Shown one piece after another: positions 3,122 through 7,783 of a DNA stretch of 10,076 nucleotides; the first letter of the stretch is position 1; the number at the start of each line of letters is the position of its first letter. The translations under genes were made by a program, and so were the position numbers. A model generated the notes under the pieces. The model had not been told where the DNA came from. It saw only the letters and a list, made by a program, of their open reading frames with translations, and searched no databases. The DNA lies in NCBI GenBank assembly GCA_014523695.1, contig JAATVS010000558.1, positions 1 through 10,076 of the forward strand, given 5' to 3'. This DNA comes from Nitrososphaerales archaeon TH5895 (GTDB lineage: Archaea; Thermoproteota; Nitrososphaeria; Nitrososphaerales; Nitrososphaeraceae).

Positions 3122-3613
3122 CTAATTGTTTCCAGCTGCTGCGGCTGCTGCTGCTGAGTTGCCTGCTGCTGCGGCTGCTGCTGCTGCACTGCTGTTATCA
3201 CTATCATCGCCGTCATGATGTCTCTTCTTGCAGTCATCGTCGTCATGATGTCTCTTCTTATCATCGTCGTCATGATGTCTCTTCTTGCAGTCATCGTCGT
3301 CATGATGTCTCTTCTTATCATCGTCGTCATGATGTCTCTTCTTATCATCGTCGTCATGATGTCTCTTCTTATCATCGTCGTCATGATGTCTCTTCTTATC
3401 ATCGTCGTCATGGTCACCGCCGGATGCAGCTGCTGCTGCTGACGCGGAGCCACCATCGCTGGATGCAGCTGCTGCTGCTGACGCGGAGCCACCATCGTTG
3501 TCGTTGTCTCCCCTGTCATCTGCTAAAGCTAGCTTTGGAGCAAACGGAATTCCTGGTACCAACGTACCTAATCCCAAAATTGCTACTAAAGTTAGTGCTA
3601 ATATGGTTTTCAT
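3122..3613 (-). CDS. secreted Ala/His/Asp repeat protein (KKRHHDDDD repeats)
   Basis: I know of no named family for this 163-aa protein. Residues 1-31 form a Sec-type signal peptide: K2, a hydrophobic core, then LALA followed by DD, with cleavage likely after A31. The mature part has three repeat blocks. Residues 41-66 hold two 13-aa units of GGSASAAAAAS type. Residues 68-133 hold seven KKRHH motifs separated by HDDDD-type tetrads, with a Cys inserted before the fifth and seventh (C109, C128). Residues 143-163 hold two polyalanine runs ending in GN. No hydrophobic C-terminal anchor is visible. The His pairs and Asp runs suggest binding of divalent metal (copper, nickel, zinc or calcium); this is inference. 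ATG 3613 fits the TATA box better than a TTG 12 bases upstream, which would add four residues. DNA units are almost identical, so copy number probably varies. Antisense frames through the array are open only because of the repeat. Confidence 0.8.
   Translation of the reverse strand: MKTILALTLVAILGLGTLVPGIPFAPKLALADDRGDNDNDGGSASAAAAASSDGGSASAAAAASGGDHDDDDKKRHHDDDDKKRHHDDDDKKRHHDDDDKKRHHDDDDCKKRHHDDDDKKRHHDDDDCKKRHHDGDDSDNSSAAAAAAAAGNSAAAAAAAGNN
3135..3186. repeat. two 30-bp-spaced CTG-rich direct repeats (polyalanine tail)
   Basis: The 22-base sequence beginning GCTGCTGCGG occurs at 3135-3156 and again at 3165-3186. It encodes the two C-terminal alanine runs of the secreted repeat protein. 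The 30-base period keeps the reading frame. The alanine codons are mostly CAG/CCG on the plus strand read in reverse, far more GC-rich than the surroundings. Confidence 0.8.
3211..3411. repeat. tandem 27/30-bp coding repeat, seven full copies
   Basis: CGTCATGATG starts at 3211, 3241, 3268, 3298, 3325, 3352 and 3379, with a degenerate eighth copy (CGTCATGGTC) at 3406. Spacings are 30, 27, 30, 27, 27, 27 and 27. The 30-base units carry an extra in-frame triplet that encodes Cys. On the coding (minus) strand each unit encodes KKRHHDDDD. Copies are almost identical at the DNA level, including third positions, which indicates recent expansion by slippage or recombination and not old protein-level conservation. 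Confidence 0.95.
3422..3497. repeat. 39-bp direct repeat, two copies (SASAAAAAS units)
   Basis: A 37-base segment starting GGATGCAGCTG and ending CACCATCG occurs at 3422-3458 and identically at 3461-3497, a period of 39 bases or 13 codons. It encodes the two DGGSASAAAAAS units just after the signal peptide of the secreted repeat protein. Confidence 0.9.
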
Positions 3614-3630
3614 CTTCTTCTGCAAAAATG

Positions 3631-3645
3631 ATATATATTATTTAA
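3631..3645 (-). promoter_or_regulatory. TATA-like tract for the repeat-protein gene
   Basis: The minus strand reads TTAAATAATATATAT. Depending on which part serves as the TATA box, transcription would start at about 3608-3615, which brackets ATG 3613 and supports it over the TTG at 3625 as the start. Confidence 0.5.
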
Positions 3646-4460: not shown

Positions 4461-4924
4461 TCATAATTTTAGCGCCGAATCTAGAGGATTTTTGATCCCA
4501 TCTATGTAGTCTTGTAATATTATGTTGAGGTTTTCAGCTGAAATTGGTTTCATTATTATCTCATTAACACCTGCAATCATAGCGTTACGTACTACACTGT
4601 CTCCAATTTCACATGAACTCATAAGGAATATTTTCACGGTGTTGCTTAGTTCTCTTATTTGTTTGACAAGTACCAAATATTCAGTACTAGATGTCTGGAA
4701 ATCACATAAAACCATGTCGTAATTTACCTTTTACTTTTCTCAATCTTCTGGAAGGCTGCGAATATGTTTGTAAAACAATGAACTTTGAAACCATATTCCT
4801 CTAAACTTTCCTTCAAGGTCATTGCAGATTCATAATCACTATTCACCAAAAGTATCTTCGTGATTCTTTGATACGGCAAATTTTTGTTTGAACTACGCGG
4901 AAATTTATCTACTAGTGAGCCCAC
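4461..4924 (-). pseudogene. single-domain response regulator receiver, frameshifted
   Basis: Two adjacent minus-strand frames, 4924-4724 (66 aa, GTG start) and the one ending at 4461, together make one CheY-like receiver of about 154 aa. The first supplies strand 1 and helix 1 (KILLVNSDYES onward) and stops at TAA 4726-4724. The second, offset by one base, supplies the phospho-acceptor loop MVLCDF (D75 if joined), the Ser switch position (FLMSS) and the conserved Lys-Pro (IIMKP). Adding one A to the AAAA run at 4732-4729 restores ...KSKKVNYDMVLCDF without a stop. The usual acidic pair is weakened to N-S-D (residues 28-30). No output domain follows. It is either a recent pseudogene or an indel in the sequence itself. 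Programmed frameshifting is unlikely because no good slippery heptamer is present. The GTG start is supported by a TATA box 31 bases away. Confidence 0.8.
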
Positions 4925-7048: not shown

Positions 7049-7414
7049 CTATCTTGAAATAGATTTGTCCGGAAGATAAATTTTCAGAATCTGATCTATT
7101 TCTTCATCAGTAACGTCCGAATTCCTGTTAGATCCATATAAGCTGTACAGGAAATCAAACGCTTCCTCCTCCGTGCAGGATACTAACCTATTTTCTGGAT
7201 CCTGTGGTAGCCTTACCTGCTCCAGAGTTTTTTTGGTTTGCAACTCTCCTTTCTCGCTAGCCCGGGACGAGGAAGATAAAATAGTCCAGTAAAGCATCAA
7301 AAAGGTATGTTCACTACTTCGTTTCTTATAGAGTACTATGCCTTCCATAGACGTATGGTAAGGATATCGATCACCCACCGCAGCAAGTCGTATTGGATCC
7401 ACCAGATCCACCAT
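7049..7414 (-). CDS. hypothetical acidic protein, 121 aa, start uncertain
   Basis: I recognise no family. Residues 1-50 are mixed alpha/beta with a hydrophobic stretch (TFLMLYWTIL), residues 50-75 are charged and Ser-rich, and the C-terminal third is acidic and helical (CTEEEAFDFLYSLYG, then DVTDEEIDQILKIYL). It has no signal peptide, no convincing membrane helix, and only one Cys. ATG 7414 is the first usable start in the uninterrupted frame, but no TATA-like box lies at a suitable distance before it. The same frame stays open 47 codons further upstream with protein-like composition before meeting TAG at 7558-7556, and a good promoter and ATG lie at 7600. The true N-terminus may therefore be longer, and the gene may be damaged. 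Confidence 0.6.
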   Translation of the reverse strand: MVDLVDPIRLAAVGDRYPYHTSMEGIVLYKKRSSEHTFLMLYWTILSSSSRASEKGELQTKKTLEQVRLPQDPENRLVSCTEEEAFDFLYSLYGSNRNSDVTDEEIDQILKIYLPDKSISR

Positions 7415-7711: not shown

Positions 7712-7783
7712 ATGCATCATCATCATGCATCATCATCATGCATCATCATCATGCATCATCATCATGCATCATCATCATGCATG
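7712..7783. repeat. 13-bp tandem repeat ATGCATCATCATC, five copies plus a partial
   Basis: ATGCAT begins at 7712, 7725, 7738, 7751, 7764 and 7777, giving five identical 13-base units and a partial sixth. The period is not a multiple of three and the array lies in the 338-bp spacer between the MFS transporter's 3' end and the promoter region at 7600, so it is most likely noncoding. Plus-strand frames across it read as His-, Ser- and Ile-rich peptides only because the unit has no stop codons in those frames. The rest of this spacer (7601-7711 and 7784-7938) shows no gene that I can support. Confidence 0.95.

Follow-up and report, generated by a model that had tools for sequence, protein, structure and literature searches.

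The best-known silk-like block proteins are those of animals. In spider and wild-silkmoth silk, poly-Ala blocks of about 7-8 residues alternate with Gly/Ser-rich or polar blocks, the chains carry conserved non-repetitive N- and C-terminal domains, and the fibres contain beta-sheet crystals. The other described systems closest to the locus presented here are the His/Asp-rich metal-binding proteins, among them those of the ZrgA type and the His-rich Ca-binding protein, the curlin-type functional amyloids with their repeats, and the type I antifreeze proteins, in which an Ala-rich helix carries a Thr every 11 residues. The gene that we compare with them encodes a predicted secreted, disordered block copolymer. 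It lies on the minus strand of the window, that is, the whole stretch of 10,076 nucleotides analysed, and its open reading frame runs from an ATG at 3613 to 3122 (3613..3122, 163 aa), with an in-frame alternative start, TTG, at 3625. The following features were read from the sequence:

3631..3643, minus strand: TATA-box-like element AAATAATATATAT, 18-30 bases 5' of the ATG
3521..3613, minus strand: signal-peptide-like leader MKTILALTLVAILGLGTLVPGIPFAPKLALA, residues 1-31
3488..3520, minus strand: acidic linker DDRGDNDNDGG, residues 32-42
3416..3487, minus strand: two Ala/Ser blocks (SASAAAAASSDGG and SASAAAAASGG), residues 43-66, a 39-bp tandem repeat
3203..3415, minus strand: alternating array of seven KKRHH units and Asp tetrads, residues 67-137, a 27-bp repeat
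3287..3289, minus strand: codon of Cys109 (DDDDC-KKRHH)
3230..3232, minus strand: codon of Cys128 (DDDDC-KKRHH)
3122..3202, minus strand: tail, residues 138-163, with A8 and A7 blocks and a GNN end, and the stop codon

An earlier note on this DNA had described a signal peptide and a mature protein of few residue types, made of two Ala/Ser units, seven KKRHH units with Asp tetrads and a poly-Ala tail, and the protein reads as described. Its N-terminus is hydrophobic, signal-peptide-like, and ends in ALA|DD, the leader being presumably cut after ALA and before DD; the two Ala/Ser blocks are each S-A-S-A5, the array contains seven DDDD tetrads and then a final DGDD, and the tail is A8-GNS-A7-GNN, which gives four poly-Ala runs of A5-A8 in all. 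Cys109 and Cys128, which that description did not mention, each directly precede a KKRHH unit, and the mature protein has no Thr. TRF, run on the window, reported the 27-bp array with 7.6 copies and 93% matches; since its seven units are near-identical in DNA, the array expanded recently, and its copy number is uncertain in an assembly of 719 contigs. AlphaFold2, given the single sequence, returned a mean pLDDT of 51 and a mature part without structure. The TATA-like element is identical at 12 of 13 bases across three orthologues (one base differs), and its position, judged by archaeal promoter spacing, fits a short-leader or leaderless transcript.

Database searches placed the protein in no named family, as the earlier note had supposed, with no match in Pfam, NCBIfam or PDB; Rfam and tRNA scans of the window also gave no matches. 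A homology search with the whole protein yielded four matches among 7988 scored candidates. The metagenome relative P0002 has a leader, a KKHH/KKRHH array and a poly-Ala tail like those of the focal protein and lacks Cys, while P0001, perhaps a chimera, joins KRHHDDDD repeats to a PF01451-bearing start. The other two, P0003 and P0004, have the look of low-complexity matches. With the leader alone, none of 26 candidates matched. The tandem DNA pattern KRHHDDDD-x-KRHH occurred once in genome_contigs (in TH5896) and not at all in viral_contigs, in searches from which records of the same or near genomes were possibly excluded. Among the matches listed from the open-licence PMC literature we found no archaeal silk-like or Ala-rich secreted family, and the passages drawn from PMC12625717, PMC7603488 and PMC12448741 make no mention of one.

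The gene has syntenic orthologues in two genomes of the same genus. Contig 328 of G003 runs collinear with the 10-kb window (93%), contig 2 of G001 with about 5.5 kb of it (80%), and the focal gene sits at the same place in both. The earlier note had made its reading depend on homologues in related genomes with an intact array; as aligned, the reading frame is kept in both orthologues and the array is neither frameshifted nor lost. Against G001, the aligned gaps are multiples of three in 5/5 cases in the focal gene and in 2/31 in non-coding DNA; against G003 the counts are 1/3 and 8/36, the three focal-gene gaps measuring 1, 5 and 3 bases (9 in total) in repeats whose alignment is ambiguous. 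Because of the collinear orthologues and the gap pattern against G001, we regard the focal ORF as more than a chance ORF. Purifying selection acts on the leader end of the gene: residues 1-42 have a dN/dS of 0.14 against G001 and zero nonsynonymous changes against G003, and the acidic linker is identical in G003 and reads DDKGDNDSDGG in G001. Beyond residue 42, dN/dS is 0.56 against G001 and 0.51 against G003, compared with 0.04-0.14 (four genes) and 0.07-0.35 (eight genes), respectively, for neighbour genes of the window by the same measure. The mature part, judged by these alignments, evolves fast, with an array that turns over by repeat homogenisation. Elsewhere in the window, a response-regulator-like gene (4461-4924, minus strand) is divided into two ORFs, with a PF00072 match below cut-off in 4461-4715; both relatives differ from it by one base in length at about 4727-4729, so that the split reflects a true frameshift or, alternatively, a mistake in the assembly. 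A perfect 13-bp tandem repeat, ATGCATCATCATC, is present in 5.5 copies at 7712-7782, between an MFS gene and the ORF at 7049-7414.

The orthologues also indicate which parts of the mature protein endure. Of the five units in the G003 array, four read KKRHN and one reads KKKHH, and its six tetrads comprise four DDND and two DDDD; the G001 array has KNKHH, KRHH or KNRHH units (HH in 5/5) with DDKD or DDH spacers. Both contain exactly two Cys in the charged array, as does the focal protein, and in both the array is flanked by Ala blocks on either side, which are A7 in G003 and shorter, partly Ser/Val, in G001. The terminal AAAAGNN is kept in both, after a tail with four Ala blocks in G003 and one in G001, against two in the focal protein. 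All 32 aligned Ala residues are retained in G003, although five of their codons changed, and 19 of 25 are retained in G001. Read across the three sequences, the alternating charges persist, as do the Ala blocks and the pair of Cys, but the exact HH/DDDD motif does not. The earlier note had looked for HH/DDDD conserved over different DNA: this is partly borne out in G001, for HH and not for the tetrads, and contradicted in G003.

These observations bear on the proposal, also made in that note, that the HH and acidic blocks bind metal, copper being its guess for an ammonia oxidiser. All five genus genomes do contain a single AmoA, so that the description as an ammonia oxidiser holds; copper specifically gained no support in our analysis. 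As a full explanation, the protein would be an extracellular buffer whose array His, Asp and Cys bind divalent ions (Cu, Zn, Fe or Ca). Chains rich in Asp are general cation binders, the array is rich in all three residues, HH is present in every G001 unit, KKHH/KKRHH blocks are kept in P0002, and the tails of relatives in leader group A (see below), such as DDDDDDRHDCDHDDDYCHDDDD, look even richer in ligands. The paralogue L075 weakly matches ZrgA, of zinc uptake (NCBIfam, E 0.0022; 17.7 bits where the cut-off is 185), and a gene for Dps, a ferritin-like iron protein, is located 2 kb away on the other strand, with no signs of linkage. However, HN replaces HH in four of the five G003 units and DDND replaces DDDD in four of the six tetrads, which weakens specific chelation by His pairs; His is missing beyond residue 30 in 7 of the 30 short proteins of the family, and no copper or zinc system was found among the ten window ORFs scanned. 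We therefore consider a metal buffer rather unlikely as the main role, and keep as a possible secondary trait that the Asp/His/Cys blocks bind cations or metals. The focal protein more likely builds extracellular material than only binds metal; the wider poly-Ala family and the Cys pair point more to a structural role.

A large silk-like family is expanded in the genus TH5896. Its members start with a signal-peptide-like leader, after which Ala blocks recur, separated by Gly, Ser or Asp. We counted DNA sites encoding Ala6-X-Gly in a genus sample of five genomes (GTDB TH5896) and found 49 in the genome of the window and 120, 7, 76 and 104 in the other four, with no match to a reversed-pattern control in any of the five; numbers of family members per genome are to be taken as "at least". 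In an order sample of 400 genomes, which includes those five, 65 had any such site (60 of the 395 outside the genus). More than six sites were present in only five of these 395, of which four also match the reversed control: G006, of the sister genus g3, has 15 sites (control 0), G246 has 56 (control 56), G263 has 22 (control 16), G273 has 28 (control 10), and G277 has 22 (control 6). The control counts in the last four indicate that composition explains some, though not all, of the sites outside the genus. G263, G273 and G277 belong to family f9, genus g44; their sites are diverse in sequence and spread over contigs, whereas those of the focal genus form tandem arrays, and the three genomes may be contaminated or GC-rich bins.

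From these loci we translated 30 short proteins (27 from the genus and three from g3) of 70-166 aa with signal-peptide-like leaders. They were picked by hand and, falling into six leader groups assigned by eye, are not phylogenetically independent. Group A has leaders of the MNRSVPVILAVVIIT type and acidic His/Cys tails; group B is that of the focal protein; group C has MKSKLSITLVALLALG and DDDDDDC blocks; group D is the fourth of the six drawn by eye; group E carries AKKKKKK or KKHKKHHH after the leader; and group F, from g3, is His-rich. We omitted from the 30 the partial or ambiguous ORFs of L067, L068, L069, L074, L078, L079, L081, L087, L094 and L096, the g3 fragment L098, and the larger mixed proteins of L065, L072 (its 314-residue ORF), L090 and L103; the database relatives P0002 (no Cys) and P0008, P0009, P0013 and P0021 (two Cys each) also stand outside the count. 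Besides the short proteins there are six long chains, with open frames of 428-818 aa, several of them cut by contig ends and without assigned starts. Ala makes up 35-65% of these chains, Gly 11-18% and Ser 6-14%; the modal length of their Ala runs is 7-8, and the blocks are most often spaced 9-12 residues apart.

A group-A query matched in all five genus genomes (in G002 a group-E member only) and, weakly (5e-4), in one of 56 other genomes. Of 18 database relatives of the group-A leader (P0005-P0022), 14 end without an acidic tail, and many of them break off within the Ala repeats or directly behind them; P0005 resembles a shifted frame of the gene that is intact in L027. These endings may come from genuine variation in frame, from errors of assembly or from gene-caller artefacts. 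Two further kinds of larger protein came up among the loci. L072 (1818-2771), L090 and L103, from three genus genomes, encode predicted secreted proteins of 310-316 aa with an N-terminal part that is Ig-like by eye and Ser/Ala/Asp-rich tails, and in L065 (750-2393) an open frame of 548 residues combines repeated Cys motifs (GEVLDESGNCVPQC) with Ala runs and an extended Gly-Thr repeat.

Cysteine follows acidity in the short proteins. Twenty of the 30 have at least 10 acidic residues after residue 30, and 18 of these have exactly two Cys, one has four and one has none; all ten non-acidic members have none. Since the members are not independent, a Fisher value for this pattern serves as description only. 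P0002, which is not counted here, is a second exception to the two-Cys rule. The two Cys of the 18 members are separated by five to twenty residues, a variable spacing from which we infer that cross-linking fits better than one fixed metal site.

Could the repeats instead be tolerated low-complexity filler, produced by slippage and recombination in a weakly constrained secreted protein with little specific function? The near-identical 27-bp units with their variable copy number and the dN/dS of about 0.5 outside the leader end speak in favor of this, as does a paralogue of G004 in which a KRHHDDDD array follows a different leader, which suggests that array modules move between leaders. Nevertheless, the frame is kept in both orthologues and the Cys pair in all three, and the sites are concentrated in one genus and yet occupy many loci there. 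Moreover, only 9 of 150 Ala runs in seven genes examined use a single codon, and the mixed codons of the rest argue for a protein sequence that is kept rather than for simple triplet slippage. We find filler improbable. The smallest chance among the explanations weighed goes to a stress-protective disordered protein, LEA-like or antifreeze-like, secreted to shield the cell surface from desiccation, freezing or changes in hydration. The chain is very hydrophilic, with Ala-rich blocks and no predicted fold, and relatives come from river and floodplain sediment, according to passages of PMC12625717. Against it, the absence of Thr from the mature protein leaves no room for the Thr-spaced 11-residue pattern of type I antifreeze proteins, Gly, Asp, Asn and Ser interrupt the Ala blocks, and there was no Pfam or NCBIfam match.

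The likeliest reading, to which we give an even chance, is that the focal protein is a charged, disulfide-capable member of a lineage-specific, silk-like extracellular matrix family. As such a member, the chain would be exported via its signal peptide, and its poly-Ala blocks would, by analogy with silk, associate with the Ala blocks of the family, including those of the 400-800-residue Ala/Gly/Ser chains. The alternating KKRHH/DDDD blocks could act as salt-bridged contacts between chains, with affinity for water, cations, minerals or cell surfaces, the Cys pair would allow extracellular disulfide cross-links, and the end product might be a cell coat, a fibre or a biofilm matrix. Counting against the matrix are the loss of Ala in G001, the fast evolution of the mature part, P0002 without Cys, the sites in G273 and G277, the unstructured AlphaFold2 model and the lack of any known domain among the proteins scanned; no genomic partner for such a role was found for the focal gene. 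A bolder version, which we hold possible though doubtful, is that the genus evolved its own silk, a set of secreted block copolymers that co-assemble outside the cell into a fibre or coat, a case of convergence with the silks of animals. Just as tentatively, this set might comprise the long Ala/Gly/Ser chains together with short basic, acidic (with a Cys pair) and alternating-charge members. If the matrix role is correct, a protein fibre or coat would join the known archaeal surface and biofilm materials, the short modular sequences (basic, acidic, alternating, Cys-bearing) could be used for testing charge and Ala blocks in assembly, and some of the uncharacterised proteins of a nitrifier lineage with large genomes would be accounted for. 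In the passages of PMC12625717, TH5896, at 911 RPKG, heads the list of the Nitrososphaeraceae genera that were most abundant in one floodplain.

Set beside the known systems, the focal protein shares with type I antifreeze proteins its Ala-rich blocks, but these are interrupted by Gly/Asp/Asn/Ser and show no Thr periodicity. With His/Asp-rich metal-binding proteins it has in common low-complexity His/acidic repeats outside the cytoplasm; unlike them, it has no domain match, and its nearest orthologue loses HH/DDDD. The link with curlin is a leader like that of group E, which in the Nitrososphaeraceae genera g1, g2 and g3 heads predicted secreted Q/N/S/G-repeat proteins, curlin-like by eye (SQIQGDGNAVSISQNQ; QSISQSQ..NNVSFQNQKNTGNNALAQ; loci L108, L109, L110, L111, L112, L114, L115, L117, L104, L106, L118 and L123), whereas the focal protein has no such repeat. 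Curlin membership of these proteins, plausible by eye, was not adopted, as no Pfam curlin match was obtained in the three tested. In L108 (1300-1563) and L109 (1294-1560), the curlin-like gene adjoins, on the opposite strand, a gene for a Gly/Pro-rich predicted secreted protein (GGPGGSSGLGPGGPGGSGG, two Cys), for which G003 has one strong relative and five genomes from outside the genus give weak matches. As for spidroin and fibroin, neither these nor any other known domain was detected in the scanned family proteins, no terminal-domain Pfam match appeared up to E 0.1 in the focal protein, L064 or L085, and the focal protein differs further in being short and having charged KKRHH/DDDD blocks. 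The alternation of poly-Ala and Gly/Ser blocks is, however, shared by the six long paralogues and, in part, by the focal protein. Judged by the open-licence papers listed, a multigene family of this sort in archaea, with members that are charged and bear Cys, appears to be undescribed; as a kind, the silk-like block copolymer, it resembles known animal proteins, a likeness that we take to be convergent.
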